64,000 nucleotides of DNA from Bradyrhizobium paxllaeri (GTDB lineage: Bacteria; Pseudomonadota; Alphaproteobacteria; Rhizobiales; Xanthobacteraceae). The number at the start of each line of letters is the position of its first letter. Positions within the stretch are counted from its first letter, which is position 1. This document shows, in pieces, positions 31,709 to 51,572 of the stretch. The notes below the pieces were generated by a model. That model was not told where the DNA came from. It saw nothing but the letters and a program-made list of their open reading frames with translations, and searched no databases. Where the stretch lies: positions 2,728,001 to 2,792,000 of the forward strand of contig NZ_CP042968.1 in assembly GCF_001693515.2 (NCBI RefSeq), in the 5' to 3' direction. A program made the position numbers and the translations under genes.

Positions 31709-31720
31709 GGAGCAAAGATC

Positions 31721-32278: not shown

Positions 32279-33193
32279 ATGGATATGGATGTGCCAGCAA
32301 CCACGGACAGGGTAAGCCTTCGGGAAGAACTCGAGGCCGTCGGCATCGAGGAAATCCTGACGCAGCTCGATCGCGAGCTGATCGGCCTGAAGCCGGTCAA
32401 GACGCGAATCCGCGAGATTGCGTCGCTATTGCTGATCGAGCGCATCCGCAAGCGCATGGGACTGACGTCGGAAGCACCGACGCTGCACATGTCGTTTACG
32501 GGAAATCCCGGCACCGGAAAGACCACGGTGGCGCTGCGGATCGCCGATATCCTGCACCGGCTCGGCTATGTCCGCCGTGGCCAGGTGGTGTCGGTGACGC
32601 GCGACGAGCTGGTCGGGCAATATATCGGCCACACCGCGCCGAAGACCAAGGAGATACTGAAGAAGGCGATGGGCGGCGTGCTGTTCATCGACGAAGCCTA
32701 TTATCTGTACCGGCCGGACAACGAGCGCGACTACGGCCAGGAGGCGATCGAGATCCTGCTGCAGGTGATGGAATCGCAGCGTGACGATCTGGTGGTGATC
32801 CTCGCCGGCTACGGCGACCGGATGGACAAGTTCTTCGCGAGCAATCCCGGCTTCCGGTCACGCATCGCGCACCACATCGATTTTCCCGATTATTCCGACG
32901 ATGAGCTGATCGACATCGCGGAATTGATGCTGCGGGAGATGAACTACAAGTTCACGCCGGAGGCGCGGGCGGAGTTCGTTCGCTACATTGCGTTGCGCAA
33001 GAACCAGCCGCTGTTTTCCAACGCGCGCTCGATCCGCAACGCGCTGGATCGTCTGCGGCTGCGCCAGGCCAATCGTCTCATCGCCGATCTCGACCATGTC
33101 CTGACGGTAGACGATATCAGGTCGATTGAGGCTTCGGACGTGCTGGCGAGCCGGGTGTTCGGGAAGGGAGGAAAATCCGCCGAAGCGAATTAG
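32279..33193 (+). CDS. cbbX: CbbX, red-type RuBisCO activase (AAA+)
   Basis: Protein of 304 residues with one AAA+ module: Walker [10 protein letters not shown], Walker [13 protein letters not shown], and an arginine-finger region with SNPGFRSRI. It remodels inhibited red-type RuBisCO by pulling on the large-subunit C-terminus, using ATP and activated by RuBP as known for the family. It lies 138 bases after cbbS, behind an intrinsic terminator, so its expression is either attenuated or driven by its own promoter. Its last codon overlaps the stop of the convergent Lrp gene. Confidence 0.95.
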
Positions 33194-33807: not shown

Positions 33808-34923
33808 ATGCGGGTCGGTGTGCCCAGGGAAATCAAGGTTGAGGAATATCGTGTCGGTCTGACGCCGGCGTCGGTCCGGGAATATGTGGCGCAAGGACAC
33901 GACGTGATCGTCGAGCAGGGTGCCGGGCTCGGCATTGGCGCCGGCGACGATATTTACCGTTCGGCCGGTGCTGCGATCGTGGACACGGCAGCCGAGATAT
34001 TCGCGACCACCGACATGGTGGTCAAGGTCAAGGAACCGCAGCCGACGGAATGGCGCCAGCTTCGCGAGAACCAGATCCTCTTCACCTATCTGCACCTTGC
34101 GCCTGATACCGCGCAGACCAAGGGGCTTCTCGCGTCCGGCTGCACCGCGATCGCCTACGAGACGGTAACGGACGCAAATGGCGGGCTCCCGTTGCTGGCG
34201 CCGATGAGCGAGGTGGCGGGACGGCTGGCGATCGAGGCGGCCGGCGCCGCCTTGCGAAAATCGGCTGATGGGATGGGCAAGCTGATCGGCGGCGTGCCCG
34301 GCGTCGCACCGAGCAGGATCGCGGTGATCGGCGGCGGCGTGGTCGGTACGCATGCCGCGCGGATGGCCGCAGGTCTCGGTGCCGATATCGTCATCCTTGA
34401 CCGCTCGCTGCCGCGGCTTCGCGTCCTTGACGAGATGTTCCTCGGTCGCGTTCGCACGCGCTATGCGACGCAGGATGCGATCGAGGAGGAGGCCATCGGC
34501 GCCGACGTCGTCATTGGCGCGGTACTGGTGCCGGGCGCCAGCGCGCCGAAACTCGTCTCCCGTGCGCATCTCGCCCGCATGAAGCGCCGCGCCGTGCTGG
34601 TCGATGTCGCGATCGACCAAGGGGGCTGCTTCGAGACGTCGCGGCCGACGACCCATCAGGCGCCGACCTATCTGGTCGACGAGATCGTGCATTATTGCGT
34701 CGCCAACATGCCCGGCGCCGTGCCTGTCACGTCGAGCCACGCGCTCAACAATGCCACGCTGCCGTTCGGCCTTGCGCTGGCCGGGAAGGGCATCCGCGCG
34801 CTGATCGAGGATCCGCATCTGCGCGCCGGGCTCAACGTGCATCGCGGGCAGATCGCCAACCGTGCGGTCGCCGACAGCCAGAATTTACCCGCGGCGGCGC
34901 CCGAGAAAATTCTCGCGGCGTGA
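33808..34923 (+). CDS. ald: Alanine dehydrogenase
   Basis: Protein of 371 residues, full length. The N-terminus MRVGVPREIKVEEYRVGLTP is diagnostic, followed by VKVKEPQ with the substrate lysine region, HLAPD, and the NAD-binding GGGVVGTHAARMA. It interconverts alanine and pyruvate plus ammonia with NAD. In Bradyrhizobium this enzyme is of interest in nodules. CAGGAGCAAGGCG lies before ATG 33808. Regulation by the divergent Lrp protein is likely. Confidence 0.94.
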   Translation: MRVGVPREIKVEEYRVGLTPASVREYVAQGHDVIVEQGAGLGIGAGDDIYRSAGAAIVDTAAEIFATTDMVVKVKEPQPTEWRQLRENQILFTYLHLAPDTAQTKGLLASGCTAIAYETVTDANGGLPLLAPMSEVAGRLAIEAAGAALRKSADGMGKLIGGVPGVAPSRIAVIGGGVVGTHAARMAAGLGADIVILDRSLPRLRVLDEMFLGRVRTRYATQDAIEEEAIGADVVIGAVLVPGASAPKLVSRAHLARMKRRAVLVDVAIDQGGCFETSRPTTHQAPTYLVDEIVHYCVANMPGAVPVTSSHALNNATLPFGLALAGKGIRALIEDPHLRAGLNVHRGQIANRAVADSQNLPAAAPEKILAA

Positions 34924-34965
34924 AGCCCGCCGGCTGACAGGCGAGGTCTCCCGCCGGGCCGACCA

Positions 34966-35877
34966 TCAGCTTCTGGCCGGGTGGCCGGAATTCCGTTTCT
35001 GGCCAAGAAAACGACGGGCCAGCTTGATGAAGTTGTGGACGACCATCGACGTCTCGTCTTTTCTGAACACGAGAAAGACATCGGCGGAGGGCGGTGAAGG
35101 CCTGATCGGCCGGAATACGATTTCGTCGGTCGTGAAGCGGGCAATTGATTGTGGGACGAGGGCTACGCCGAAGCCTGCGGCGATCAAACTGGGGACCGAC
35201 TGTGCATCGATGACTTGCTGGGAAACCCGCGGCAGGAAGCCGGCGTCGACACAGCATTTCTGGATGTAGCGCGCAAACTGAGAGCTTTCGGGCTGCAGGA
35301 CAATCTGATCCTCCGACGCAAGGTCGCCGAGGGCGATGCGCTTGCGTCGCGCCAGCGGATGCGCCTTCTGCATCGCAACCACGACCTCTTCCGACCACGC
35401 AAGCTCGCTGTGGAGTTGATGCTCGGTCGGGATGCTGCGATTCAGGCTGATGTTTGTCGTGCGATTGAGGAGAGCCGCAATCTGCAGGGCCGGCGCTTGT
35501 TCATGCACTGTCATCCTTACCGCAGGCGCATCCTTTCGATACGCCGCGAGCAGGTCGGCCAGGCGTCCGCGCAGGATGGAGCCGGTTGCTCCGATGTCGA
35601 GAGTCCCAACCAGGCCGGCGCCGATTGAATGGACCTCGTCCTCGGCCAGTTTGATCTGCTGTTGAATGGCGCGCGCCCGCGCCAGGAGCGCTTCTCCCGC
35701 CTGGGTCAGTTCGACCCTGCGACTGGTTCGGTAGAGGAGCTGCGTCCCCAACGCCGCTTCGAGCGACTGGATGTGCTGGCTGAGGGGCGGCTGCGAAAGA
35801 TTCAATCGTCGCGCCGCGGCAGTGAAGCTGCGTTCCTCGGCCACCGCGATGAAGTACCGGAGCTGGCGGAGATCCAT
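34966..35877 (-). CDS. LysR-family transcriptional regulator
   Basis: Protein of 303 residues from ATG 35877, whose MDLRQLRYFIAVAEERSFT opening is classical for LysR regulators; an upstream in-frame start would add 34 residues with no function visible. The effector domain has ATGSILRGRLADLL and is similar to BenM/CatR-type regulators. It is divergent from the symporter gene (212-base gap) and probably controls it with the ureide genes allA and allE. The effector is unknown. Confidence 0.85.
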   Translation of the reverse strand: MDLRQLRYFIAVAEERSFTAAARRLNLSQPPLSQHIQSLEAALGTQLLYRTSRRVELTQAGEALLARARAIQQQIKLAEDEVHSIGAGLVGTLDIGATGSILRGRLADLLAAYRKDAPAVRMTVHEQAPALQIAALLNRTTNISLNRSIPTEHQLHSELAWSEEVVVAMQKAHPLARRKRIALGDLASEDQIVLQPESSQFARYIQKCCVDAGFLPRVSQQVIDAQSVPSLIAAGFGVALVPQSIARFTTDEIVFRPIRPSPPSADVFLVFRKDETSMVVHNFIKLARRFLGQKRNSGHPARS

Positions 35878-36089
35878 AGGGTTTTCCTCTTGATCGTGTC
35901 GTTCTATATATTGGACACCCTGTGCGGCATGGTCAACGAATGCCTTGGTGCGCGGCCGGGACGGAAGTCCGGCGGGCAATCATTTGTTTCGAAGCGACGT
36001 CAGCGTCGCTGCCAAGAGCAAAAGTGGCGCCCGGCCGCAGGTCGACGAAGCCATATCAAATGGAAACACCGACCGAGCGAGGGAACGCC

Positions 36090-37424
36090 GTGCCAAGGTT
36101 ATTCAAGTCACTCTTCTTCCAGGTCATCGTGGCGCTGGCGCTGGGTATTGCGCTTGGCGTGTCTCACCCGGATGCCGCTCTTCAGATGAAACCGCTGGGC
36201 GACGGCTTCATCAAGCTCATCAAGATGCTGGTTCCGGTGATCGTGTTTTGCGTTGTCGTGCACGGGATCGCCGCCGCAGGGGACCTGTCGAAGGTTGGGC
36301 GAGTCGGGGTGCGCGCGCTGATTTACTTCGAGGTCATCACGACGATTGCGTTGGTGCTCGGCATTGCGCTCGCCTATTACTTCCAGCCCGGTGCCGGAAT
36401 GAATATCGATCCGAGGACGCTGGACGCAAAAGCGTTGAGCGGCTTCAGCCAGACGGCGGCCCAGGTCGCCGGCGGCGGTGTCTCGGAATTCCTCATGAAG
36501 CTCATTCCCTCGACGGTGGTCGGGGCCTTCACGACCGGCGACATCCTGCAGGTGCTGATCGTCTCGATCATGTTCGGCTGTGCTGCCTCACTGTGCGGCG
36601 AGCGGGCCAAGCCGGTGGCGGATTTCATCGGACGCGTGAGTGACATCGTCTTCAAGATGATGAATTTCGTCGTCAGGTTGGCGCCGCTCGGTGTGTTCGG
36701 GGCGATCGCGTTTACGGTCGGCAAGTACGGCATCGGTTCGCTCAAGCAACTCGGCGGGCTCGTCGCCCTGTTCTATGTGGCCGTGGTCGTTTTTGTCGTC
36801 GTCGTGCTGGGCGCGGTCATGCGCGTTTCCGGCTTCAGCCTGTTCAAGTTGCTCCGTTACTTGCGCGAGGAACTGACGATCGTCCTCGGCACGGCGGCCG
36901 GAGACAGCGTGCTGCCGCAGACCATGCGCAAGCTCGAGCTTCTCGGCATCAAGCCGTCGACCGTCGGACTGGTAATCCCAACGGGCTATTCATTCAATCT
37001 GGATGCCTTCTCGATCTACCTGACGCTGGCCGCGGTGTTCATTGCCCAGGCGACCAATACGCCGCTGGCCACGGGTGATCTTCTGGCAATTCTCGGCGTT
37101 GCCCTCCTGACTTCGAAGGGTGCTCACGGCGTTCCCGGCTCGGCCATCGTCGTGCTTGCGGCCACCCTCGCGGCCATCCCGACCATTCCGGCCATCGGAT
37201 TGGTGTTGATCCTGTCGGTGGACTGGTTCATTGGCATTGCGCGCGCGCTGGGCAACTATATCGGGAACTGCGTCGCCACGGTCGCCGTGGCCTCTTGGGA
37301 AGGCGATATCGATCGGGAGAAGGCGCATCGGGTCCTGAACGGGCAGGTTGATCCCGTGAGTGTGGAAGCAGAGATCGATCCGGCGGAGCTGGACACAACG
37401 GGAGCGCAGCCTCAGGCGATCTGA
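36090..37424 (+). CDS. DctA-type dicarboxylate/amino acid:cation symporter
   Basis: Membrane protein of 444 residues with about eight transmembrane helices. The re-entrant/substrate region has GTAAGDSVLPQTMRKLE and PTGYSFNLDAFSIYL, and SKGAHGVPGSAIVVLA follows, all as in DctA/GltP. DctA proteins take up C4-dicarboxylates such as succinate and malate with protons or sodium. Many have TSSES in the first hairpin, whereas this one reads TAAGDS, so its substrate may differ. GTG 36090 (AGGGA upstream) gives the usual MPRLFKSLFFQV start. It precedes allA and allE, suggesting a ureide-related substrate. Confidence 0.85.
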   Translation: MPRLFKSLFFQVIVALALGIALGVSHPDAALQMKPLGDGFIKLIKMLVPVIVFCVVVHGIAAAGDLSKVGRVGVRALIYFEVITTIALVLGIALAYYFQPGAGMNIDPRTLDAKALSGFSQTAAQVAGGGVSEFLMKLIPSTVVGAFTTGDILQVLIVSIMFGCAASLCGERAKPVADFIGRVSDIVFKMMNFVVRLAPLGVFGAIAFTVGKYGIGSLKQLGGLVALFYVAVVVFVVVVLGAVMRVSGFSLFKLLRYLREELTIVLGTAAGDSVLPQTMRKLELLGIKPSTVGLVIPTGYSFNLDAFSIYLTLAAVFIAQATNTPLATGDLLAILGVALLTSKGAHGVPGSAIVVLAATLAAIPTIPAIGLVLILSVDWFIGIARALGNYIGNCVATVAVASWEGDIDREKAHRVLNGQVDPVSVEAEIDPAELDTTGAQPQAI

Positions 37425-37508
37425 TATCAGGCGCTAGGCGTCCGGTATTGGCTAGACGCGGCCGATCTGGACATCTTGCCATGCTAAAATTTGATCGGAG
37501 TTTGAACG

Positions 37509-38045
37509 ATGCTGGTGCTTTCGGTTGCACCTTTGACAAAGGCGGGGTTCGCGCCTTTCGGCGAGGTCGTCGAGACGGAAGATGTGACGCCGAAACTGAT
37601 CAACGAAGGATTTGCCAGACGCTATGACGACCTGGCGAAGATTGACGTCGCCTCGGCAGGCGGAGAGGTCAATGTCAGTCTGTTCATCGGCACGGTGAGA
37701 CCGGCGCCGATTGTCATCAAGATGATGGAGCGCCATCCGCTCGGAAGCCAGCTTTTCGTCCCGCTGAACGAAATGCCCTGGCTGGTGGTCGTTTGCGTAG
37801 ATCCGGATATCCCGGCGAGCTACCGGGCGTTTGCTGCGTCGGGACGGCAGGGCGTGAACTATGCGAAAAACTGCTGGCATCATCCGCTGCTTGTAACTGC
37901 AGATGCTGGTCCGTTCGTTGTGGTCGATCGAAAGGGCGCGGGCAGCAACCTCGAAGAAAAGTGGCTTGAAGAACCAAACTGGCTACAGATCGCGTTCGAT
38001 GGTGCTGCTGCAACGCATCCGGACATCACGGCACAGCCGGGCTAG
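37509..38045 (+). CDS. allA: Ureidoglycolate lyase
   Basis: Protein of 178 residues of the AllA family, near its usual length of about 160-170. The motifs NVSLFIGTVRPAP, MERHPLGSQLFVPL and GVNYAKNCWHHPLL are typical; the His and Glu residues there form the active site. It splits ureidoglycolate to glyoxylate and urea in allantoin breakdown. TCGGAG precedes ATG 37509. It is followed 45 bases later by allE. Allantoinase and allantoate amidohydrolase are not in the window. Confidence 0.9.
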   Translation: MLVLSVAPLTKAGFAPFGEVVETEDVTPKLINEGFARRYDDLAKIDVASAGGEVNVSLFIGTVRPAPIVIKMMERHPLGSQLFVPLNEMPWLVVVCVDPDIPASYRAFAASGRQGVNYAKNCWHHPLLVTADAGPFVVVDRKGAGSNLEEKWLEEPNWLQIAFDGAAATHPDITAQPG

Positions 38046-38090
38046 TCATTCGACGAACATCCGCAAGAACCGTCTTTAAGAGGCCAGGAA

Positions 38091-38936
<846 letters not shown>

Positions 38937-39030
38937 ATCGGGCTTGTCGGATGACCTGACGATTCAGTGTCGGCGATGACAGACGTTGCGAGAGGGACGA
39001 CCACATCTAACAGGCCGAGCCGGAACTGCG

Positions 39031-39294
39031 CTACTTGCCCTTGGTATCGACCTTGTGCTTTTCGTCCTCGTTCATTTTCTTCACCACGGGATCGCGGCTG
39101 GCTTCGCCGGTGGTCTGCGTCGTCGTGGCCGGCGGGCTTTCGTTTGGCAGCGAGCTCTGCCCCGGCGATGTCGTCGCGGGCCGCGTGGCGGTCGCGCTCG
39201 GCGGCGACGTTGTTTGAGCGGTCGCCGCCTGAGCATTCAATAGAAGCGCGCCCGACAGTAGCGATACCGCGAGCGCCGTTGAGTTGGGTTTCAT
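39031..39294 (-). CDS. Small exported Thr/Ser/Pro-rich hypothetical protein
   Basis: Protein of 87 residues with a signal peptide (LLLNAQAATAQ) and a mature part rich in Thr, Ser, Pro and Ala, ending in a charged helix (KKMNEDEKHKVDTKGK). It lies 55 bases beyond the 3' end of the molybdenum hydroxylase gene on the same strand. It looks like the small periplasmic or surface proteins common in rhizobia. I assign no function; the signal peptide and codon use support it being real. Confidence 0.65.
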   Translation of the reverse strand: MKPNSTALAVSLLSGALLLNAQAATAQTTSPPSATATRPATTSPGQSSLPNESPPATTTQTTGEASRDPVVKKMNEDEKHKVDTKGK

Positions 39295-39349
39295 CGGCCT
39301 GAACTCCTCTCAGACCAAGGAAAACGGCCCGTTCGATCTAACGTTCCTC

Positions 39350-41668
39350 TCACGCCTCCAATTGCTTGCCGATCGGCAGCGCGCGGATGCGCTTGCCGGT
39401 CGCGGCGAAGATCGCGTTGATCAGCGCCGGTGCAACGGGCGGCAGCCCTGGCTCGCCAACGCCGCTGGGCGGCGTGTCGGGACCGGCAGGCGCGATATAG
39501 ACGTTGGTCACAGCAGGGGCTTCGTCCATCCGGATCACGGGGAAATCGTCGAAATTGCCCTGTTGCACCTTGCCGTCCTTGAAAGTGATCTCGCCATACT
39601 TGGCGAAGCTCATACCCATGATTACAGCGCCTTCCATCTGCGCCTGGATTCGCTCCGGATTGACGTGGGTTCCGCAATCGATCGCGGTATCCACCCGGGG
39701 TACGGTAAGCTTGCCCTTGTCGTCGAAAGCTACCTCGACAATGGTCGCGATGTAGCTGACGAAGCTCCGGTGCGCGGCAATGCCGAGCCCGTGGCCCTTG
39801 GGCACGGACCGTCCCCAACCGCCCTTGTCCGCGACCAGCTCGACGACCTTGCGAAGGCGCGCGGTATCGATTGGATAGCTGTCATAGGGTTCACCATAGT
39901 TCCAGAGGTCCTTCACGGAATCTAGCTTGAGGATCCGGGGAGAGCCGATCAGCTCCAGCAGCATGGTCTTTTGATCGCGGTTGGTGGCATGAGCGAGTTC
40001 GCCTACCATCGATTGCACCGCAAACGCGCGCGGGATATTCGACACCGAGCGGAACCAGCCGATGCGGGTCCGCGCGGCCGCTTCCGGATTCTCGCACTGG
40101 ATGTTGGCGATCTCGAAGGGCATGTCGACAAGCCCCATGCCAAGCTCAAACGGCGCCTGATGCACCGCATTGGCCGCAAAGGTCGAGGCAATGGTCGGCG
40201 CGACGCTGCGATGCCGCCATGCCGTCACCTTCCCGCTTTTGTCGAGGCCGGCCTCGATGCGCTCCACCGAGACGGTGTGCAGGAAGCAGTTGCGAATGTC
40301 GTCTTCTCGCGTCCATTGCACCTTTACAGGAGCGCCGAGCTCCTTTGAAAGCAGTGCCGCCTCGAGGGCGAAATCGCACTTCGACTTGCGCCCGAACCCG
40401 CCGCCGAGCAGGGTGACGTTGACGGTGACGTTCTCCTGGGGAATGCCCAGCGTTTTGGCTACGTCTTCGCGCGTTCCGCCCGCGCTTTGCACCGGTGCCC
40501 AGATCTCCGCCTTGTCGCCCTTGACGTCCGCGACCGCGACCGGCGGTTCCATACTGGCATGGGCATGATGCGGCACGTAGTACTCACCAACGATCACCTT
40601 GTCGGCGCCCTTCAAGGCGGCATCCACGTCGCCCTCCTTGCGTACCACAAGGCCGGGTTTCCGTGCGGCTTGCTCCAGTTCGGCGCGGTAGGCGACCGAC
40701 TCGTATTTGCCGTTGGCGCCATCGTCCCAGACGACCTTCAACGCGTTGCGGCCCTTGATGGCCGCGCCGGTGTTGCGCGCGATCACAGCGATCCCGCCGA
40801 GCGGCTGGAATTTTGAAGGCCACGGCCAGCCCTTGACTTCCATAACCTTCTCGACGCCGGAAACCTTCATCGCTTCCGCCCCATCGAACGACGCGACCTT
40901 GCCGCCGGTGACCGGCGGCCGGGCAATGACGGCATATTTCATGCCGGGCAGGCGGACGTCGGCGCCGTAGCGCGCGGCGCCCACCGTGATATCGCGACCG
41001 TCGACGATGCCGATCGTGCCCTTGCCGAGATAACGGAAGTCCTTCGGGTCCTTGAGCCTCAAGCCTTCGACACTCGGCACCGACTCCCTGGCGGCATCTG
41101 CTGCCAGCTCGCCGAAGCCGATGCGGCGTCCGCTTGCATTGTGAACGACCTCGTGATTGATCGCCTTCACTTCGGTCGCTGGCACGCCCCAACGTTTCGC
41201 CGCTGCGGCCTCGAGCATCGTGCGGGCCGAAGCGCCGATCTGGCGCATCGGCATCAGATAGTGCCGCGTGCTGCGCGATCCGTCGGTATCCTGGTTGCCA
41301 AACTTGACCTCGTCGCCAGGCGCCTGCTGGACGCGAACGCGCGACCAGTCGGCCTCCATCTCTTCGGCGACGATCAGTGGCAGGCTGGTGCGGACACCCG
41401 TTCCCATCTCGGCGCGGTGCGCGACGATCGTCACTGTTCCGTCGGATGCGATAGAAACGAAAACGCGCGGGTTCACCACGGTACCGTGCGGCATCTTGTC
41501 CGCGCCGGTCTGGTACGCTGCAAAGCCGGGGCGTGACATCACGGGAGCGGCAAGCACAAAACCGCCGGCCAGCCCGAGGCCTTTCAAGATACTGCGGCGT
41601 GAAACGTTGTCGACCTTGATGTGCCGTTCGAAGCCACGGAGCTTGTTGGGATTGGTAAGGATATTCAT
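39350..41668 (-). CDS. Molybdopterin-binding subunit of a xanthine dehydrogenase-family hydroxylase (isoquinoline oxidoreductase/aldehyde dehydrogenase type), Tat-exported
   Basis: Protein of 772 residues with a twin-arginine signal ([14 protein letters not shown]) near residue 24, so it acts in the periplasm. The molybdenum-site landmarks are [25 protein letters not shown] and the catalytic glutamate motif GVGEPGLPP near the C-terminus. This layout matches two-component IorAB-like enzymes, which hydroxylate N-heterocycles or oxidise aldehydes and pass electrons through the iron-sulfur subunit; no FAD subunit is present. The iron-sulfur subunit gene ends 2 bases upstream. It is divergent from a Rieske/PQQ alcohol dehydrogenase pair, suggesting that an aldehyde made there is its substrate. 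Confidence 0.88.
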
Positions 41669-41670
41669 GG

Positions 41671-42123
41671 TCACACCCCCGTCGATGCGAGATGCACGGC
41701 CTTCGCGATGCGTTGATAAGTGCCGCAGCGGCAGATATTGCCTGCCATCGCTTCGCGTATCTGCTCGGGATTGGGCTTTGGATTTTCCATCAGCAGCGCG
41801 GCCGCCTGCATGATCTGGCCGACCTGGCAGAAGCCGCATTGCGGAACATTGAGCTGGCGCCAGGCCTTCTGAACCGCGTGATCGCCAGTCGGATGAAGGC
41901 CTTCGATCGTCGTGACCTCCCGGTCGACCACGTCGGAGACCGACGTGATGCAGGAGCGTACTGCCTGCTTGTCGACGATCACGGTACAGGCGCCGCAAAG
42001 CGCTTGGCCGCAGCCATATTTCGTACCCGTCAGTCCGATTTCATCGCGGAGGAACCAGAGCAGCGGAAGATCGGGATCGCCATCCCAGTTCTTTTGCTGG
42101 CCGTTAATCTTCAACGTAATCAT
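41671..42123 (-). CDS. (2Fe-2S) subunit of the molybdenum hydroxylase
   Basis: Protein of 150 residues, the standard small subunit with two clusters: plant-type ferredoxin cysteines in YGCGQALCGACT and a C-terminal cluster in QCGFCQVGQ and CRCGTYQ. It relays electrons from the molybdenum centre. It lacks its own signal peptide, so export would depend on hitchhiking with the Tat-bearing large subunit, as known for this family. ATG 42123 begins the typical MITLKINGQ. The gene is directly upstream of the large-subunit gene. Confidence 0.92.
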   Translation of the reverse strand: MITLKINGQQKNWDGDPDLPLLWFLRDEIGLTGTKYGCGQALCGACTVIVDKQAVRSCITSVSDVVDREVTTIEGLHPTGDHAVQKAWRQLNVPQCGFCQVGQIMQAAALLMENPKPNPEQIREAMAGNICRCGTYQRIAKAVHLASTGV

Positions 42124-42745
42124 GATCGATCCTCGCTCTTCGTAAGCTGCTGATGGTTGCTCCGGCGTGAACGACAACACACCTGCTGACCGCTCGACGC
42201 CGCTGCTTCGAAATTCCTTGCTGTCTGGCTGGGATTTCTGTGAGCCATCCTCCTGATCGTTATTATTGGCTGTTGTTCAGTAGGCCGCGCTTTTCGATCA
42301 CTACCACAAGGCGTCTACATTTTGCTTCCGCATGTTTGGCGAAAGCGGGGCGTTGCCAAAAGAATTGAATTTGGTAAGCGACGCTGACGCAGTGAGAGCG
42401 GGCACGCGCAATTCGCGTCAAACTTGAACGTTTCCGTCGGGACAAAATGGAAGATCGTCTCTTCAAGGGTCGTGCAGTAGCATGGACTTGTATCGCGTGC
42501 GCACCGGACACCGGCGTGGCGCCGCTCGCGTGCCCGTAACGCACTGCACATCACCAAAGGCTGGGCTGTTCTGCGAAATATGCATGAGACGTCGAGCTGC
42601 AATGACGACGTTCAAGAAAATGCGAGGACGCTTACTGTTACGGGCACTTGTTGCAATCGTTGACGCTCCACGAACGAAAAGATTGCTCAAGACACAATTT
42701 TTCCGTCGCCATTTTTTTGACCGACTCTCTCCTTCAGGTTGAGTG
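42124..42745. promoter_or_regulatory. Divergent intergenic region, hydroxylase versus Rieske/PQQ dehydrogenase
   Basis: These 622 bases separate the two halves of the redox module and look more AT-rich than the flanking genes. Short frames on both strands (for example 42482-42742 plus, 42315-42602 minus) are Arg-rich, without motifs or ribosome-binding sites, so I treat it as non-coding. The size leaves room for both promoters and a regulator site, but I can name no specific operator. Confidence 0.5.
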
Positions 42746-43393
42746 ATGTGCAAATCCGATCAGGCAACGTCGATCACAAGCACTGACACGGAGCTCGCGA
42801 CGGCGATGTGTCAGGATCCAACGCGGCGAGCGCTCATCCTGACAGCCCTTGCCACGGGTGCCTGCCTGGCGTCGGCAAGGCCTTCCATTGCTGAAGAGGA
42901 TTTGCCTGGAAGCAGCGAGCGGCCTCAGAAGGGCGACGTTCTGGTTTTCGCCGAAGGGGATCGTGCGGGCGAGGTAATCAAGCCGCAGGATCTGCAGGCT
43001 GGCGGACCGCCGGTGCGGGCCTGGCCAAAAGATCCCAAGACATCGGTAGTGCGCAAGGGCTCGCGCCTCAACGAGATACTCGTCGTAAAACTGGAACCGG
43101 CTGAGCTGGATGAAGAAACGCGCTCACGCGCCGCCGGCGGTGTCGTGGCGTATTCGGCTATCTGCGTCCACACCGGTTGTCCGATCACTGCATGGGTGAA
43201 GGCGGCAGGCGGCGACAAGGACGTGTTCAAATGCGTTTGCCATAATTCGGAATATGACCCCAGGCAGAGCGCGCAGGTCGTGTTTGGACCGGCGCCGCGG
43301 CGCCTGCCGGCGCTTCCGTTGGCGACGGACGACGGTTCGCTGACGGTGGCTGCGGCATTCATTGGAAAGGTAGGCGCGCAGCAGGCCAGGTGA
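42746..43393 (+). CDS. Exported Rieske (2Fe-2S) protein paired with a PQQ dehydrogenase
   Basis: Protein of 215 residues. A Tat-like signal (PTRRALILTALATG) lies about 25 residues in, so the protein is probably exported folded. The high-potential Rieske motif is complete: Cys140, His142 and Cys145 in CVHTGC, and Cys163, Cys165 and His166 in CVCHNS, giving the two ligand pairs plus the disulfide typical of electron-transfer Rieske proteins. The gene lies 73 bases before the PQQ alcohol dehydrogenase and no cytochrome c gene is present, so it may be that enzyme's electron acceptor. GTG 42743 immediately precedes ATG 42746 in frame. Confidence 0.85.
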   Translation: MCKSDQATSITSTDTELATAMCQDPTRRALILTALATGACLASARPSIAEEDLPGSSERPQKGDVLVFAEGDRAGEVIKPQDLQAGGPPVRAWPKDPKTSVVRKGSRLNEILVVKLEPAELDEETRSRAAGGVVAYSAICVHTGCPITAWVKAAGGDKDVFKCVCHNSEYDPRQSAQVVFGPAPRRLPALPLATDDGSLTVAAAFIGKVGAQQAR

Positions 43394-43466
43394 CGGTGGG
43401 CGGCCGTCTCGATTCACGACGAGAAAAACAGAATTCGTGAGATGGAAACAAAGGGGAGGTTGCGCT

Positions 43467-45188
43467 ATGGCCTTGAAGCAATGGCTTTTGTCCGGTTTGC
43501 TCGCGTCTACATGCCTCGTTTCGGTCGCTGCCGCCGGCCCGATCGAGAACTACAGCCCGGTAACCACTGAACGACTCAAGAATCCCGAGCCCGGCAACTG
43601 GATGCATTACCGTCGGACCTATGACGGGCAGGGTTACAGTACACTCGACCAGATCAACACCTCGAACGTGAAAAACCTGGTGCCGGTGTGGACGTTCTCG
43701 ACCGGTGTAGTCGAAGGACACCAGGCGCCGCCGATCATCAACAATGGCGTGATGTTCGTCTCAACGCCCGAGGGGCAGGTGATCGCGCTCAACGCCAAGA
43801 CCGGCGATGAGTACTGGCGATACAAGCGCCAGCTACCCGAAGATCTCTTCCAGTTGCATCCCACCAACCGCGGCGTCGGGCTGTGGGAGGACAAGCTTTA
43901 TCTCGCCACGACGGACGACCATCTGGTCGCGCTCGATGCCAAGACCGGCAAAGTGGTCTGGGACACCAAGGTTCAGGACTACAAAAAGGGGCAGTATTTG
44001 ACCCTGATGCCGCTGGTCGTGGACGGCAAGGTGATTGTCGGCGGTTCCGGCGGCGAATTCGGTATCCGCGGTTATATCGTTGCCTACGATGCCAACACGG
44101 GCAAGGAACTGTGGCGAACCTTCACCATTCCCGGCCCGGGCGAGCCCGGCCATGACACGTGGAGCGGCGACGACTGGAAAACCGGAGGTGCGCCTGCCTG
44201 GATGACAGGCACCTACGACGTGGATACCAGAACGGTCTATTGGGGCACCGGCAATGCCGCTCCGTGGCCGGGCGAGACCCATCCCGGCGACAATCTCTAC
44301 TCGACATCGGTGCTCGCGCTCGATCCCGACAGCGGCAAGATGAAATCATATTTCCAGTACCATCAAAACGATTCCTGGGACTGGGACGAGGTGGACGCCC
44401 CCATGCTGATCGACCTGCAAAGGGACGGCCGCACCATCAAAAGCCTGGTTCATCCCGGCCGCAACGCGATCTTCTGGGTGCTCGAGCGCAAGCCGGAGGG
44501 CATCAAATACGTCGCCGGCTGGCCTTTCGTTTATACCAACGTCTGGAAGAGCATCGATCCCAACGGCAAGCCGATTGCCGATCCGGCCCACAAGCCGGGA
44601 ATCGGCAAGCGCGTTGAATTCTGTCCATCATTGTGGGGCGGCAAGGATTGGCCGTCGGCGGCCTATAGTCAGAAAACCGGATTGGTCTACGTTCCCGCCA
44701 ACGAGAATTTCTGCGGCGGCTTTACCGGCGAGAAAGTGCCGCTCGTTGCCGGCAAGCTTTGGCTCGGGACCAAGCCCGAAGATATCGGCTTGACGCCCCG
44801 TCCGGGCGCTACCCACTTTGGCGAACTGCAGGCGTGGGATCCGGCCACGGGCAAGAAGGTCTGGTCGCATAATTTTCCGAAGTCACAACTGTTCGGTTCG
44901 GTGACCGCTACCGCAGGCGACCTCATCTTTGTCGGCGGCACCAATGACCGGATGTTCCGTGCCTTCCATGCCAAGACCGGTGAGTTGCTTTGGGAGCAAA
45001 AGACCAATTCCGGGATCGTGGGCATGCCGATCGCCTATGAGGTGGACGGCACGCAGTATATCGCTGTCCAGTCGGGCTGGGGCGTCGACGCGCAGCGCAT
45101 CCAGGACGCATTGGTGGGCAAGGTTCCCGGCCTGGAGAACAACGTGCCGCAAGGCGGCGTCGTCTGGGTGTTCGCCGTTAAGAAGTGA
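43467..45188 (+). CDS. PQQ-dependent alcohol dehydrogenase (quinoprotein), lanthanide-type metal site
   Basis: Exported protein of 573 residues with a signal peptide (SVAAAGP). The eight-bladed quinoprotein fold is evident, with metal ligands Glu197 (GGEFG) and Asn263 (GTGNAAPW), a stacking Trp245 (GAPAWMTG), and catalytic Asp305 followed by Asp307 in SWDWDEVD. The second Asp is the feature that marks lanthanide-using quinoproteins. The vicinal Cys pair found in XoxF and ExaA is absent: the segment reads QLHPTNRGVG. It is not a methanol dehydrogenase by sequence; an alcohol of unknown size is expected. It follows the Rieske gene, and GGGGAGG precedes ATG 43467. Confidence 0.88.
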   Translation: MALKQWLLSGLLASTCLVSVAAAGPIENYSPVTTERLKNPEPGNWMHYRRTYDGQGYSTLDQINTSNVKNLVPVWTFSTGVVEGHQAPPIINNGVMFVSTPEGQVIALNAKTGDEYWRYKRQLPEDLFQLHPTNRGVGLWEDKLYLATTDDHLVALDAKTGKVVWDTKVQDYKKGQYLTLMPLVVDGKVIVGGSGGEFGIRGYIVAYDANTGKELWRTFTIPGPGEPGHDTWSGDDWKTGGAPAWMTGTYDVDTRTVYWGTGNAAPWPGETHPGDNLYSTSVLALDPDSGKMKSYFQYHQNDSWDWDEVDAPMLIDLQRDGRTIKSLVHPGRNAIFWVLERKPEGIKYVAGWPFVYTNVWKSIDPNGKPIADPAHKPGIGKRVEFCPSLWGGKDWPSAAYSQKTGLVYVPANENFCGGFTGEKVPLVAGKLWLGTKPEDIGLTPRPGATHFGELQAWDPATGKKVWSHNFPKSQLFGSVTATAGDLIFVGGTNDRMFRAFHAKTGELLWEQKTNSGIVGMPIAYEVDGTQYIAVQSGWGVDAQRIQDALVGKVPGLENNVPQGGVVWVFAVKK

Positions 45189-45276
45189 CGGCGAGCGGTC
45201 GCGTCGGACGTCTGGCTGCTGCGGCGGCAGTGGCGAGGCGCTGGCGCGATCCAGCTCTCTCACGCGTGGCGTACGG

Positions 45277-46560
45277 TTATGCCTCGTTCAAGGCCTGAGC
45301 GAGGTCCGCGATCAGGTCGGACGGGTGCTCGATGCCGATCGACAGCCGGATCGTGCAGTCGAGAACGCCGATTTTCTGGCGGATGTCGGCGGGAACACCG
45401 GAGTGGGTCATGCTTGCGGGCAGGCTGGCAAGCGATTCAGTGCCGCCCAGGCTCACCGCGAGCTTGAATATCTGCAACGCGTTGAGGAACTTTGAAGCGG
45501 CGGCCTGGCCGCCGACGATGTCGAACGAGAATGTGGAGCCTGCGCCGCTGCATTGGCGCGCGAACAGGCGGCCGGCCACGGAGTCCGGCTCGTGATGAGC
45601 AAGGTAATGAACCTTCGCCACCTTGTTGTGGTCGCGCAGGTAATCGGCCACGAGCTGCGCGTTTCGGTCTGCTTTCTCCATGCGCAGGCTCAGCGTCTCG
45701 AGCGATCGGCCGATCATCCAGCAGGAGTGCGGATCGAGCTGGGTGCCGATCGCGCTTCGCAGTGCCTTGATATCCTTCATGATGGCTTTTGAGCCGATCG
45801 CCGCGCCCGCGATCAGGTCGGAATGGCCGCCGACATATTTGGTCAGCGAGTACACCGAAAGATCAGCGCCGTGTTCGATCGGCCGCTGAAACACCGGCCC
45901 GAGCAGCGTATTGTCGCACGCGATGATCGGCGTGTGCCGTTGGGTCTGCCCGATCATGTCGGCGACGCGGCGGATCATCGCGATATCGACCAGTCCATTG
46001 GTGGGGTTTGCCGGCGTTTCGATGAAAATCATCGCAACCCGGCCTTTCTGCATGGTGTCCTCCGCCGCCGCTCTGACCGCAGTTTCGTCGAGGCCGTCGG
46101 CAAAGCCCACGGCGCCGATCGAGAGGTTTGCAAGCGTCTTCGCAAACAGGGTCTCTGTTCCGCCATACAGCGGCTGAGAATGCAGAATGACGTCACCGGG
46201 CCGGACGAATGCGAGGATGGTGGTCGAAATCGCGGCCATGCCCGAAGAGAACAGCGCGCAATTTTCCGCGCGTTCGTAGACAGCGAGCCTGTCCTCGACG
46301 ATCTCGCTGTTGGGGTGATTAAAGCGCGAGTAAACCAGACCCGCACCCATTCCCTCCGGAGGCTCGCGCCGGCCCGAGACGAAATCGAAGAAATCCTGTC
46401 CGTCTTCGGCGGTCCTGAAGACGAAGGTCGAGGTCAGGAAGACCGGTGGCTTGACGGCGCCTTCCGAGAGTTGCGGGTCGTAGCCGTAATTCAGCATCAG
46501 CGTTTCCGGATGCAGCATGTGGTTGCCGATGTGGGTTTTCGACGGAAACGGTTTCACCAT
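45277..46560 (-). CDS. Cystathionine gamma-synthase/methionine gamma-lyase-family PLP enzyme
   Basis: Protein of 427 residues of the Cys/Met metabolism PLP family. The pyridoxal lysine is in [12 protein letters not shown], with [10 protein letters not shown] in the cofactor-phosphate region, [10 protein letters not shown] and [12 protein letters not shown] as further signatures. It could perform gamma-replacement or gamma-elimination on homoserine esters or methionine; sequence alone does not separate these. It stands alone between the PQQ dehydrogenase and the ABC transporter genes, with 178 bases (46561-46738) upstream before the ABC ATPase stop, so it likely has its own promoter. Confidence 0.82.
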
Positions 46561-46738
46561 GGCTGTCTCCCTGTCGGGATGCGGAGCGTCGCACTGCGTT
46601 GGAGGTTCGCAATGGCGAGGCGGTCAGGAGTGTTGGATGCGACGGCATCCAACGAGTCCAGTGCAAGCAGGGATCAGCGTAGCAAAATCCGGGACTGATT
46701 TCACCGCGTCCGGGGGCGTATTTCACAGCGCGCGATGG

Positions 46739-47524
46739 TCAGGCGTGAGCCGCAACCTTCAAGGCCTCGGCGCGGATCTCTTCGACGAGCCGTTCCTTCA
46801 GTCTGACGAACTCAGGCGCGGTTTTGATCTTGTAGGATCGCGGGTGCGGCAGATCGACCGCGATCTCGGCCTTGATGCGGCCGGGGCGGGCGCTCATGAC
46901 GATGACGCGGCTGCCGAGGAAGATCGCTTCCTCGATATCATGCGTGACGAACAGCACGGTCTTCTGGTCGCGTTCCCAGATGCCGAGCAGCATTTCCTGC
47001 ATCAGCACGCGGGTTTGATTATCCAGCGCGCCGAACGGTTCGTCGAGCAACAGGATTTTGGGATCGTTGGCCAGAGCTCGTGCGATCGCCGTGCGTTGCT
47101 GCATGCCGCCGGAGAGTTGCTTCGGCCAATGATTTTCGAAGCCCGACAGGCCGACGCGCTGGATGAAACCGTCGGCGATTTTTTCGCGGTCCGCTTCCGA
47201 AACCCCGCGCTCGCGCAGGCCGAACGCGATGTTCTCTCGCACGGTCAGCCATGGAAACAGCGTGTAGGACTGAAACACCATGCCGCGATCCGCGCCGGGG
47301 CCCGTGACCTCTTGCCCGTCCAGAATGACGCGGCCGCTGGTCGGCCGGTCGAGCCCGGCGATGATGCGCAGCAGCGTTGATTTTCCGCAGCCCGACGGGC
47401 CGAGGATGGTAACGAAGTCATTGTTGCCGACGTTGAGGTCGATCGGTTCCAGGGCGCGCGTCGGTGCATGGCCCTGGCGTGCGGGGAAGGTGCGGGCGAC
47501 TTGATCGATTTTGAGCTCGGTCAT
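46739..47524 (-). CDS. NitT/TauT-type ABC transporter ATP-binding protein
   Basis: Protein of 261 residues with Walker A GPSGCGKST, signature LSGGMQQRT, Walker B ILLLDEPFGALD and switch His in VTHDIEEAI. It resembles SsuB/TauB/NrtD ATPases of importers for sulfonates, nitrate or pyrimidine precursors. The start ATG 47524 overlaps the permease stop by four bases. A much longer frame upstream is an artefact of antisense openness across the permease gene. Confidence 0.9.
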   Translation of the reverse strand: MTELKIDQVARTFPARQGHAPTRALEPIDLNVGNNDFVTILGPSGCGKSTLLRIIAGLDRPTSGRVILDGQEVTGPGADRGMVFQSYTLFPWLTVRENIAFGLRERGVSEADREKIADGFIQRVGLSGFENHWPKQLSGGMQQRTAIARALANDPKILLLDEPFGALDNQTRVLMQEMLLGIWERDQKTVLFVTHDIEEAIFLGSRVIVMSARPGRIKAEIAVDLPHPRSYKIKTAPEFVRLKERLVEEIRAEALKVAAHA

Positions 47525-48297
47525 GCCAGCTTCCACGGGAATAGCCAGGCGTTGAAAGCCTTGAACAGAAAGTCCGATACCAGGCCGATCAGCCCGATGA
47601 CGATGATGCCGAAAATGATCTGGCCGGTGTTGAGCAGGGCCTGGCTGTCGGTGATCATGTGGCCGATGCCCGAGGATGATCCGATCAGCTCGGCGACGAT
47701 GACATAGGTCCACGCCCAGCCGAGAACGAGCCGAAGGATTTCCGCGACTTCGGGGGCGGAGGAAGGCAACAGCACCCGGTTGATGATGCCGCGGTCGCTG
47801 GCGCCGAGCGTGTAGGCGGCTTCGACAAGGTCGCGCCTGGTGTTTCCGACCGTGACGGTGACCATCAGGATGATCTGGAACACCGAGCCGATGAATATGA
47901 CCAGCAGCTTCTGCAGTTCGCCGATGCCCGCCCACAGGATCAGCAGCGGGATGAAGGCCGAGGCGGGCAAATAGCGGGCAAACGAGACGAACGGCTCCAG
48001 AAAGGCTTCGATCGGCTTGTAGGCACCCATCAACACGCCGAGTGGCACGGCGATGATGGCCGCCAGCACGAAGCCGCCGACGACCCGCCAGATGGTCATG
48101 CCGATGTCGAACAGGAAGCCGTGCTTTGTCAGTAGCTCCCAACCCTCCTGCAACATGGTCAGCGGGTTGGCGAGGAAGGTCTTGGAGACGTAGCCGCCGA
48201 AGGTTGCCCACGCCCACACGGCGACGAAAAGCACGAAGAACGCAAGGCCATAGGTCGCGCGCTGCCTCGATGTCACGGGATCCAGGGGACGTATCAC
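47521..48297 (-). CDS. NitT/TauT-type ABC transporter permease
   Basis: Protein of 258 residues with about six membrane helices and the coupling motif AAYTLGASDRGIINRVLLPSS. I choose GTG 48297, which has AGGA 6 bases upstream and gives the usual family length; an in-frame TTG at 48372 would add a non-homologous segment reaching into the upstream gene's end. It forms an importer with the ATPase and the binding protein encoded just upstream. Confidence 0.87.
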   Translation of the reverse strand: MIRPLDPVTSRQRATYGLAFFVLFVAVWAWATFGGYVSKTFLANPLTMLQEGWELLTKHGFLFDIGMTIWRVVGGFVLAAIIAVPLGVLMGAYKPIEAFLEPFVSFARYLPASAFIPLLILWAGIGELQKLLVIFIGSVFQIILMVTVTVGNTRRDLVEAAYTLGASDRGIINRVLLPSSAPEVAEILRLVLGWAWTYVIVAELIGSSSGIGHMITDSQALLNTGQIIFGIIVIGLIGLVSDFLFKAFNAWLFPWKLA

Positions 48298-48374
48298 AGG
48301 ATATCCTAAAAACGGTGTGCTGATATCGCTGGTCCCGCTCCCGTGACCGAAGGCGGGACCGGCGCAAACCAAAA

Positions 48375-49319
48375 CTACTTGATGAAGCTCGTATCAACGA
48401 GATCGTCGATTTTCGGAATCGATTTGATGATGCCGATCTCCAGTAACAGGTCCGCGGCCTCCTTGGTAAAGGCCTGCCACTCGCCTGCGAAGAATTTCTG
48501 GTTCGCAGCCTTGTCCTGCCAGCGCAGATACTTTGCCGAGTTGCCGAACTGTTCGCCGGACTGCTTCACATCGGAGCCCATGATTTCGTAAGACTTGGCC
48601 TGGTCCTTCTCGATCATGGCGACAGCCTCGAAATAGCTGTCGGCCAGCGCCTTCGCGGCTTTCGGATTCTCGGTCAGAAATTTCGGCGTGCAGCCGAATG
48701 TGTCCATGATCATCGGGTAGTCGAGCGTGGTCGCGATGATCTTGCCCTTGTCGGGCGCGGCGCGCACCGTCGACAAATAAGGCTCATAGGTCATGGCTGC
48801 ATCGTTCTGGCCGGACACGAATGCCTGCGCCGCTGCGGCTGGCTCCAGATTTACCACCGTGACGTCCTTGACCGTAAGGCCGTTCTTCTTGAGCATCCAG
48901 GCCAGGGTGAAGTAGGGAGCGGTGCCGGGCGCGGACGCGGCGACCGTCTTGCCTTTCAGATCCTTGATCGCCGCGACATCGTTCCGCGTTACCATGCCGT
49001 CGGCGCCGTAGCTCTTGTCGAGCTGGAAGATCTGCTTGGTCGCAACGCCATTGGCATTCCAGGAAATCCAGGTCTCGACCGTGGTCGCCGCGCACTGGAT
49101 GTCGCCTGAAGCGATGGCGAGATGGCGGTCCTTCTGCGGGATCTTCTTGATCGTCACATCGAGGCCGTTCTTCTTGAAGATGCCGGCCTGGTTTGCGAGC
49201 GTGAGTGGCGCAAACCCGGTCCATCCGGAAATGCCGATGCCGACCTTTACGTCCTGAGCGGCGGCCGGTGCGGTTACTAAGAGAGCGGCGGCTGCCGCCA
49301 AAAATCCAAAACTACGCAT
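48375..49319 (-). CDS. NitT/TauT-type ABC transporter substrate-binding protein
   Basis: Protein of 314 residues with a signal peptide (APAAAQDV) and the GWTGFAPLTLANQAGIFKKNG segment of nitrate/taurine/thiamine-precursor-type binding proteins. It is the first gene of the binding protein-permease-ATPase set. It lies 102 bases downstream of hutC on the same strand, so the transporter may be under the histidine-utilisation regulon and import histidine, urocanate or a related imidazole. That substrate is inference from position only. Confidence 0.85.
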   Translation of the reverse strand: MRSFGFLAAAAALLVTAPAAAQDVKVGIGISGWTGFAPLTLANQAGIFKKNGLDVTIKKIPQKDRHLAIASGDIQCAATTVETWISWNANGVATKQIFQLDKSYGADGMVTRNDVAAIKDLKGKTVAASAPGTAPYFTLAWMLKKNGLTVKDVTVVNLEPAAAAQAFVSGQNDAAMTYEPYLSTVRAAPDKGKIIATTLDYPMIMDTFGCTPKFLTENPKAAKALADSYFEAVAMIEKDQAKSYEIMGSDVKQSGEQFGNSAKYLRWQDKAANQKFFAGEWQAFTKEAADLLLEIGIIKSIPKIDDLVDTSFIK

Positions 49320-49421
49320 GGCTGTATCCCTTTTGCTGGTTCATGGATTGTGTCTTGGTCAGTTCACGTTCATCGAAACTGTTGCATAGCTTGTGCCAGA
49401 TCTTGCGCGCATTGTTATCCC

Positions 49422-50165
49422 TCAGCCGCCTTTGAAGCGGGCAACCAGTTTATGAGACTCGCCCGGATAGAGCAGGCGCACGGCCGTTAGCGGCCGGGAG
49501 CTGCGCCAGGTGTGCCGGTCGATCACGAGGCAGGGCGCCCCGATGGCGATATCGAGCGCCGCCGCGGCCTGTTCGTCAGCCACGATGGCGCTGATCGAAT
49601 GCTCGGCTTCCGTCCATGGCACATGGTGAAGCAGCCATGTGCCGGGTGGCTCGGTCGCAAAATCCGCCGTGGCCGCTTCGGGCACTGCGTCGAGATCGAT
49701 CAGCCTGTCCTCGATGGCGAACGGCACGTCGTCTGCGCTGTGACGGCACGCAATCGCGATCACCTTGCCGGTTTTCCTTGCCCCAAGGCGGTCGCGGTCG
49801 GCGGCGTTTGCGGCGCGCCGCGAGCACTGGATCAGCTCATAGCCGTAACTGCGGCCGAGCGCGCCGATCTCCGCGCGAATGTCGGCGATCTTGAGCACCG
49901 CCGACAGAAATGTGGGACGGCGGACAAAGCTGCCCGCCTTGCGCCGCCGCTCGATAAGATCGGCCTGCGCCAGCTCCGACAGCGCCTTGCTCACCGTCAT
50001 GCGCGAGCAGCCATAGAGCGACATCAGTTCGTGCTCGAACGGGATGCGATGACCGGGCGGCCATTCTCCGGTCAGGATGCGGCGCTCGATGTCGATCCGG
50101 ATCTGCTTGTACAGCGTCGGCTTGTCGGCCGACTGGGGTTTGCCGCGATCGGTGGCGAGGCTCAT
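49422..50165 (-). CDS. hutC: HutC, histidine utilisation repressor
   Basis: Protein of 247 residues, GntR/HutC type: winged helix-turn-helix in the first 75 residues (LMSLYGCSRMTVSKALSEL) and a UTRA effector domain. It should repress hut genes until urocanate binds, as established for HutC. The start overlaps the hutF stop by four bases, so the repressor is translated from the hutF message. Likely operator: 51559-51572 between hutF and hutI. Confidence 0.93.
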   Translation of the reverse strand: MSLATDRGKPQSADKPTLYKQIRIDIERRILTGEWPPGHRIPFEHELMSLYGCSRMTVSKALSELAQADLIERRRKAGSFVRRPTFLSAVLKIADIRAEIGALGRSYGYELIQCSRRAANAADRDRLGARKTGKVIAIACRHSADDVPFAIEDRLIDLDAVPEAATADFATEPPGTWLLHHVPWTEAEHSISAIVADEQAAAALDIAIGAPCLVIDRHTWRSSRPLTAVRLLYPGESHKLVARFKGG

Positions 50166-51520: not shown

Positions 51521-51558
51521 GTTTCGAAACCGGCTGGACAGAACGACCACACGATTTT

Positions 51559-51572
51559 ATGTATAGACATAT
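51559..51572. promoter_or_regulatory. HutC operator candidate in the hutF-hutI gap
   Basis: The 84-base divergent gap contains TATGT-ATAG-ACATA, an inverted repeat close to the TGTATA-type sites bound by HutC in other proteobacteria. A second overlapping near-palindrome, GACATATCGATACGTC (51567-51582), continues it. Together they could hold one or two HutC dimers that shut off both directions. Confidence 0.6.

Follow-up and report, generated by a model that had tools for sequence, protein, structure and literature searches.

Alcohol dehydrogenases that depend on pyrroloquinoline quinone (PQQ) are described as donating their electrons to c-type cytochromes in the accessible parts of two publications (PMC8546591, PMC12997753). 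The same parts tie a ring formed by two vicinal cysteines (the Cys-Cys ring) to electron transfer to cytochrome c, for which the 2021 paper sees considerable evidence. Here, we analysed a locus in a 64-kb window (the whole stretch of 64,000 nucleotides, positions 2,728,001 to 2,792,000 of contig NZ_CP042968.1 from Bradyrhizobium paxllaeri) in which the gene for such a dehydrogenase directly follows the gene for a Rieske [2Fe-2S] protein, next to the genes for a molybdenum (Mo) hydroxylase. The source genome is 8.38 Mb in size and Bradyrhizobium-like, with B. lablabi and B. jicamae as the nearest named relatives (94-95% Rieske identity). We assign a probability of about 0.72 to the reading that the Rieske protein would be the dedicated electron acceptor of the PQQ enzyme, with the aldehyde step carried out by the Mo hydroxylase.

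Conservation of the Rieske-PQQ gene pair

To survey the pair, Rieske searches were run against 397 genomes of the order (28 matches in 27 genomes), 385 genomes of the class (9 new matches) and 398 of the phylum (2 new matches), while a further class (274 genomes), searched with a relative as the query, gave 1 new match. At most seven candidates in Rieske searches, or five in PQQ searches, were scored per genome, except in the 274-genome search, where every candidate in the listed genomes was scored. A PQQ gene was located beside the Rieske gene in all 40 homologues from the genome survey, all in Pseudomonadota and with Rieske identities down to 31%, and in 77 of the 78 GTDB loci, which represent the best 80 of 108 relatives, the weaker 28 being outside the count. 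Some loci, such as L045 and L016, belong to an overlap between the GTDB set and the genome survey. Plasmids contributed 16 records, of which 10 were opened (five from Thermus and one from Paracoccus yeei were left out), and the pair was present in 8 of these 10 loci: Roseomonas, Azoarcus, Deinococcus aetherius, three Paracoccus, Methylobacterium and Alteromonas. An earlier interpretation of the window, hereafter the sequence-only reading, had stated that homologues with an unlinked Rieske gene would refute it, and the three counts above are the outcome of that check.

The Rieske-PQQ family is uncommon, with members in 27 of 397, 11 of 385, 12 of 398 and 2 of 274 genomes of the order, the class, the phylum and the other class, respectively. 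Rows with truncated PQQ genes and identical duplicates between loci were dropped. With repeated loci included, the Rieske gene came first in 148 of 158 rows and the PQQ gene in 7, while 3 contained no PQQ gene. Since the Rieske gene may thus lie before or after the PQQ gene, the linkage has survived rearrangement. An open reading frame (ORF) on the opposite strand separates the two genes in L158.

Two successive Rieske-PQQ pairs were observed in Bradyrhizobium hereditatis and B. archetypum (L056 10001-16926, L057 10001-15358). A record titled Frankia sp. RB7 (L117) contains a four-gene set of the Bradyrhizobium type, with 67% identity for the Rieske protein and 84-85% for the other three; its title may be wrong or its assembly mixed. 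On Thermus and Meiothermus plasmids (L133 5968-7500, L135 5911-7469), Rieske genes of the same family are located beside TauE/SafE sulfite-exporter genes.

The Rieske protein and the ring-less PQQ enzyme

The window Rieske protein scored 36.4 bits for the Rieske domain PF00355 (cut-off 20.3) and contains all ligands (two Cys, two His) and both disulfide cysteines in CVHTGC ... CVCHNSEYD. In the predicted model, residues 1-54 almost all have a predicted local distance difference test score (pLDDT) below 50 and the remainder forms a confident Rieske fold. Among solved proteins, 1nyk, a Rieske protein from Thermus thermophilus, is the closest in both sequence and fold (135 bits; template modelling score, TM, 0.88 of the target), followed among structural relatives by actinobacterial QcrA and then AioB. 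The score for the arsenite oxidase small subunit model TIGR02694 was 47.6, below the cut-off of 95.65, and the neighbouring gene codes for a PQQ alcohol dehydrogenase rather than aioA. The ligand motif is complete in all 122 distinct linked Rieske proteins, with Ser in all of them and either Tyr (64) or Phe (58) at the last position. The twin arginine does not vary across the 28 rows of alignment A1, and in 121 of the 122 proteins an RR pair lies within the first 70 residues; in the remaining one, L136, it is at residue 86, counted from an over-long predicted start. In bc1 Rieske proteins, Ser and Tyr at these places raise the potential, and because the window protein has both, it is likely to be of high potential, while the linked proteins with Phe are perhaps lower. 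In total, 2617 relatives were retrieved at E values of 1e-10 or better, and gene contexts were seen for a minority of them.

The PQQ enzyme scored 621.8 bits for TIGR03075, the methanol/ethanol type (cut-off 480.05), and its GGEFG, WKTGG..W and NDSWDWD motifs at the PQQ and metal sites are aligned with those of known enzymes, among which PedH (6zcv) is the nearest solved structure (374 bits; TM 0.83 of the target). We take D305 to be the catalytic Asp. The enzyme also has the extra active-site Asp (D307) of lanthanide-type enzymes, a residue that the accessible text of PMC12628762 uses for the prediction of lanthanide dependence, so that it probably uses a lanthanide. The extra Asp is present in 102 of 114 linked PQQ proteins and is Ala in the other 12; judged by this motif, the Rieske partner would go with both metal types.

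Two traits of the canonical type I quinoproteins PedH, XoxF and MxaF are missing at the window locus, namely the vicinal Cys-Cys ring, the place of which is taken by Q129-L130-H131, and an adjacent cytochrome c gene. Nor is this a type II quinohemoprotein, since the ORF of 573 amino acids (aa) contains neither CxxCH nor a C-terminal heme c domain. Of the 114 distinct linked proteins, 112 have other residues followed by a His in place of the Cys pair, giving the pattern [LFMS]HxT[NS]RG. The AlphaFold model of the dehydrogenase is of middling quality (pLDDT 71.5), and the placement of His131 over the PQQ rests on the alignment.

To approach the relationship from the other side, we searched 240 genomes of the class for PQQ enzymes, with matches in 54 of them, and examined 106 distinct PQQ proteins. 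Six were Rieske-linked, all of them without Cys-Cys, and none of the 79 proteins with Cys-Cys had a Rieske neighbour (Fisher p 1.7e-4, kinship ignored). These loci extended about 1.5 kb to either side, and less at contig ends, so that a Rieske or cytochrome gene could escape. Here and below, kinship between sequences is not corrected for in the Fisher tests and permutations. If the acceptor had changed, absence of the ring would be expected in a clade with the Rieske gene and mostly without a cytochrome gene. Among the linked PQQ genes, 4 of 34 outside Bradyrhizobium and 2 of 79 Bradyrhizobium-like ones have a CxxCH ORF of more than 80 aa at a distance of up to 1.5 kb, compared to 36 of 47 enzymes with Cys-Cys but no heme domain (4/34 versus 36/47: Fisher p 5e-9, the rows not being independent).

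A tree was inferred from 140 PQQ proteins, consisting of 41 of the 114 linked ones (Bradyrhizobium thinned) and 99 unlinked ones. The 39 linked enzymes of the His type formed one clade with a support of 100 in the Shimodaira-Hasegawa-like approximate likelihood ratio test, joined weakly (62) by the Deinococcus enzyme. The enzyme of L152 was placed apart from the His-type clade, and the Rieske label therefore needs two changes on the tree. L152 (G202:C1:948500-968000) is a second pairing, here with a Cys-Cys enzyme; the same genome carries a pair of the His type as well (L151). The Rieske and PQQ distances were correlated (r 0.635, 38 pairs), with none of 999 permutations as high.

Locus layout and the molybdenum hydroxylase

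Features of the window are listed below. The gene positions and families given in the sequence-only reading agreed throughout with the ORF coordinates, profile scores and motifs. Its description of a complete Rieske protein of the twin-arginine translocation (Tat) type was confirmed by R27-R28, every ligand and the disulfide cysteines, and that of a Tat-exported two-subunit Mo hydroxylase by the SRRSILKG signal and the domain content.

Features of the Rieske-PQQ locus and of the xox-like genes in the window (positions are those of the window)
Feature	Position	Strand	Remarks
xoxF-like gene	15357-17222		assigned by position and motif, not by a curated model
cytochrome c-like gene in xoxG position	17298-17798		PF13442 26.9 bits, just below cut-off 27
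Mo hydroxylase large subunit	39350-41668	-	ATG at 41668; xanthine dehydrogenase family; MoCoBD_1 and MoCoBD_2
Mo hydroxylase [2Fe-2S] small subunit	41671-42123	-	Fer2/Fer2_2; without signal peptide
Intergenic gap between divergent units	42124-42745		622 bp
Rieske [2Fe-2S] protein, 215 aa	42746-43393	+	ATG start; GTG at 42743 possible
Rieske twin arginine R27-R28	42824-42829	+	precursor residues
Rieske cluster-binding loops C140xH142..C145 and C163xC165H166xS168xY170	43163-43255	+	motif
PQQ-dependent alcohol dehydrogenase, 573 aa	43467-45188	+	signal peptide by eye; without heme domain
PQQ enzyme Q129-L130-H131, site of the vicinal Cys-Cys(-Asp) ring in canonical enzymes	43851-43859	+	alignment
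PQQ enzyme D305-W306-D307, including the extra Asp predicting lanthanide dependence	44379-44387	+	alignment

The PQQ gene starts 73 bp past the Rieske stop codon and is preceded by a Shine-Dalgarno-like stretch, GGGGAGG. A promoter scan of the gap between the divergent units (42124-42745) yielded no sigma-70-like and no sigma-54-like site. The module is flanked by a gene for (S)-ureidoglycine aminohydrolase before it and a gene of the cystathionine gamma-synthase family after it. No CxxCH ORF of at least 80 aa was found within positions 34000-52000, in agreement with the earlier claim that no cytochrome gene adjoins the PQQ dehydrogenase, and the single CxxCH ORF of at least 100 aa in the window is the xoxG-like one (17223-17795), 25 kb from the module.

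The divergent layout of the Mo and Rieske-PQQ genes noted in the sequence-only reading stands for the window but not as a general arrangement, being local to L043-L049. At other Bradyrhizobium loci with Mo genes, these are located downstream and convergent, while the genes for the small and large subunits follow the PQQ gene in this order on the same strand in 9 of 10 more distant loci with both genes, the tenth (L162) having them on the opposite strand. In Roseomonas, the order is Rieske-PQQ-small subunit-large subunit on one strand.

The Mo enzyme has the domains of the xanthine dehydrogenase family, and the closest solved chain to its large subunit is that of an aldehyde dehydrogenase (8gy3_C, 247 bits). 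Besides the twin-arginine signal, the large subunit has a GVGE..P motif near the C terminus, presumably with the catalytic Glu; the small subunit would be exported together with it. Of the linked PQQ genes, 75 of 79 Bradyrhizobium-like and 10 of 34 others have both subunit genes at most 8 kb away. Because the linked large subunits outside Bradyrhizobium were 53-61% identical and the paralogues in the source genome 29-38% over long matches, the linked hydroxylase appears to form an orthologous group of its own. Of 41 neighbourhoods, 9 contained a member of a protein cluster of NAD aldehyde dehydrogenases (NAD, nicotinamide adenine dinucleotide), 11 a member of a cluster of sigma-54 activators and 6 a member of a cluster of LutB-like lactate-utilisation proteins, each cluster being named from one scanned representative. 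For the LutB-like group, a natural guess would be oxidation of 1,2-propanediol via lactaldehyde to lactate.

Small proteins of about 140-150 aa (Paracoccus, Alteromonas) or 185 aa (Roseomonas) are encoded after the Rieske gene at some loci; no Pfam family scored above its cut-off in the four that were scanned, and the five that were read contained no CxxCH. Directly after the PQQ gene, L150 (11960-12430), L155, L163 and L165 encode members of a secreted family (154-205 aa, acidic C-terminal tail), and the one member that was scanned (L165) matched no Pfam family. As none of these small genes was among the scanned window genes beside the module, they were left out of the mechanism.

Elsewhere in the window, positions 11495-17798 and 25044-33193 contain genes for a TonB-dependent receptor, the xoxF-like and cytochrome c-like proteins and enzymes of the Calvin cycle, the latter set at 25-33 kb consisting of FBPase, PRK, transketolase, aldolase and the RuBisCO large subunit. 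Together, these genes probably represent a lanthanide-dependent methanol island linked to the Calvin-Benson-Bassham (CBB) cycle; a XoxF-CBB methanol route is described for Bradyrhizobium in the accessible text of PMC12628762.

Electron flow, alternatives and known systems

We propose a periplasmic module in which the quinoprotein, with PQQ and probably a lanthanide, would oxidise an alcohol to the aldehyde, the reduced PQQ then passing its electrons one at a time to the Rieske protein encoded directly upstream, as a replacement of the usual cytochrome c. The Rieske protein would either be bound tightly to the quinoprotein as a subunit or act as its dedicated partner. That it serves as the electron acceptor is likely, and so is the onward transfer from it to a general periplasmic cytochrome c and an oxidase. 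Rieske proteins of this type have potentials of roughly +150 to +300 mV. Transfer to such a protein from PQQ, for which the accessible text of PMC11697101 gives a potential of +90 mV, would thus be downhill. The earlier suggestion of the Rieske protein as electron carrier gains strong support from the near-complete linkage and from the 112 of 114 linked enzymes without Cys-Cys, all of this being evidence from sequence and gene context. The Mo hydroxylase would convert the aldehyde to the acid; that it acts on the same aldehyde is plausible, and that it shares the Rieske protein with the PQQ enzyme is speculative. The aldehyde-to-acid step of the sequence-only reading is supported by linkage of the hydroxylase in some relatives and of NAD aldehyde dehydrogenases in others; the acceptor proposed for the Mo enzyme is putative.

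Several observations weigh against this proposal. One Thermus and one Meiothermus plasmid contain a Rieske relative without a PQQ gene, and in B. elkanii WSM2783 (L098) the Rieske gene (9998-10627) has no PQQ gene within 10 kb on either side, possibly a loss of the pair in progress. The Rieske-linked enzymes of Deinococcus locus L136 and of L152 have kept Cys-Cys. Of the 106 surveyed PQQ proteins, 21 had neither Cys-Cys nor a Rieske neighbour (one of them, in L212, is a piece of 230 aa), and for 10 of the 21 there was a CxxCH ORF in the locus. The source genome itself contains a PQQ paralogue of this kind (L199, G000:C1:2568000-2581000; QTHSPYNRG), without Cys-Cys and Rieske gene and adjoined by a CxxCH ORF (4901-5443). 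Ring loss alone hence does not mean a Rieske acceptor, and we rejected a rule to that effect because the 21 unlinked proteins are ring-less too. The unlinked enzymes that branch closest to the Rieske clade on the tree are also without Cys-Cys, and ring loss may for this reason have preceded the Rieske partner. The distance correlation is expected of any co-inherited operon. Finally, 24 of the 34 linked genes outside Bradyrhizobium had no Mo pair within 8 kb, 7 of these 24 with a flank of less than 6 kb; when at least 6 kb was available on both sides (25 genes), 8 had the pair and 17 did not, among the latter L165 with the large subunit alone. The Mo enzyme is thus optional in at least many loci.

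These observations bear on three other explanations. A cytochrome c encoded elsewhere, xoxG-like or c550-like, could be the real acceptor, with the Rieske protein as an accessory in redox sensing, protection or maturation. The xoxG-like gene in the same window, the CxxCH ORFs at 10 of the 21 loci with ring-less, unlinked enzymes and the c-type cytochromes that serve published quinoprotein alcohol dehydrogenases (in the accessible parts of PMC8546591 and PMC12997753) all favour it, but an accessory role is hard to square with the near-obligate pairing, the intact ligands in 122 of 122 Rieske proteins and the few CxxCH ORFs in linked loci, and we consider it unlikely. That the Rieske protein is instead an alternative subunit of a cytochrome bc complex, through which the dehydrogenase would be plugged into the respiratory chain, is suggested by its closest solved relatives, which are actinobacterial QcrA and the Rieske protein of Thermus. 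Rieske subunits of bc complexes have reportedly been found to be exchangeable, which we count for this explanation. However, the scores were below the cut-offs of the bc1 Rieske subunit models (38.1 of 97.4 for TIGR01416, 89.5 of 275 for NF050121), none of the six genes scanned around the module (38091-46560) belongs to a cytochrome b or c1 family, and the likely donor is encoded next door, all of which makes a bc subunit quite improbable.

The Rieske protein might also serve the Mo hydroxylase alone, in the manner of AioAB, its closeness to the PQQ gene being incidental. AioB, the Rieske subunit of a Mo enzyme, is indeed a structural relative, and no cytochrome gene adjoins the Mo enzyme, but the 17 of 25 well-flanked linked genes outside Bradyrhizobium without a Mo pair, and the lack of any examined locus with Rieske and Mo genes but no PQQ gene, leave this with hardly any probability. 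Transfer from the PQQ enzyme to the Rieske protein is the reading that we retain. A more far-reaching version, to which we give somewhat less than even odds, is that the pair would represent a third electron-exit route besides separate cytochromes and fused heme domains, in which the acceptor is a Tat-exported Rieske protein and the ring is replaced by a conserved His, in which the same Rieske protein, in the four-gene form, also drains the Mo hydroxylase in an alcohol-to-acid relay without a dedicated cytochrome, and in which the pairing arose at least twice (the main clade and L152).

A search of the open full-text literature found, among the titles and abstract openings listed, no description of a Rieske partner of a PQQ alcohol dehydrogenase, in line with the earlier remark that no described system of this composition was known; an earlier description is possible, subscription papers being mostly outside this coverage. 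The analysis points to a possible exit for the electrons of alcohol oxidation that has not been described so far. The ring-less clade paired with Rieske proteins would be a natural experiment on electron transfer in PQQ enzymes, and would suggest a function for part of the large, unnamed set of Rieske relatives. The module would also give Bradyrhizobium, next to XoxF, a pathway that probably depends on lanthanides, and biosensors could gain a heme-free electron-transfer partner from it.

For Bathyarchaeia, the accessible text of PMC11697101 proposes that PQQ-domain proteins might pass electrons to the donors of small intracellular Rieske proteins, the latter being close to their counterparts in alkene monooxygenases; unlike the window system, no linkage of Rieske and PQQ genes is described there. 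The Thermus thermophilus Rieske protein (1nyk, 3fou) is similar to the window protein in sequence and fold, but 3fou is named a subunit of quinol-cytochrome c reductase, and in CxCHxSxYD the window protein has Ser where the Thermus protein has Gly. Mo aldehyde oxidoreductases (the large subunit of 8gy3, PaoC) have the same domains as the Mo and Fe-S subunits of the window enzyme, which differs from them in that no cytochrome gene adjoins and no NCBIfam cut-off was reached; IorAB is a further such comparison. Arsenite oxidase AioAB, which is exported by Tat, resembles the proposal in that a Rieske protein is the electron-transfer subunit of an exported oxidoreductase, and the structure of its complex with cytochrome c552 is listed as 8ed4; it differs in family, and its catalytic partner is a different Mo enzyme from that of the window. 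The type II quinohemoproteins (1kb0, 1kv9) likewise have a dedicated electron-transfer unit, which is a fused heme c as opposed to the separate [2Fe-2S] protein here. PedH/ExaF and XoxF share the fold, the PQQ-site motifs and the lanthanide Asp with the window enzyme, but they have Cys-Cys and are paired with cytochrome c550 or XoxG, whereas the window enzyme has neither the ring nor a cytochrome gene and is encoded adjacent to a Rieske protein.

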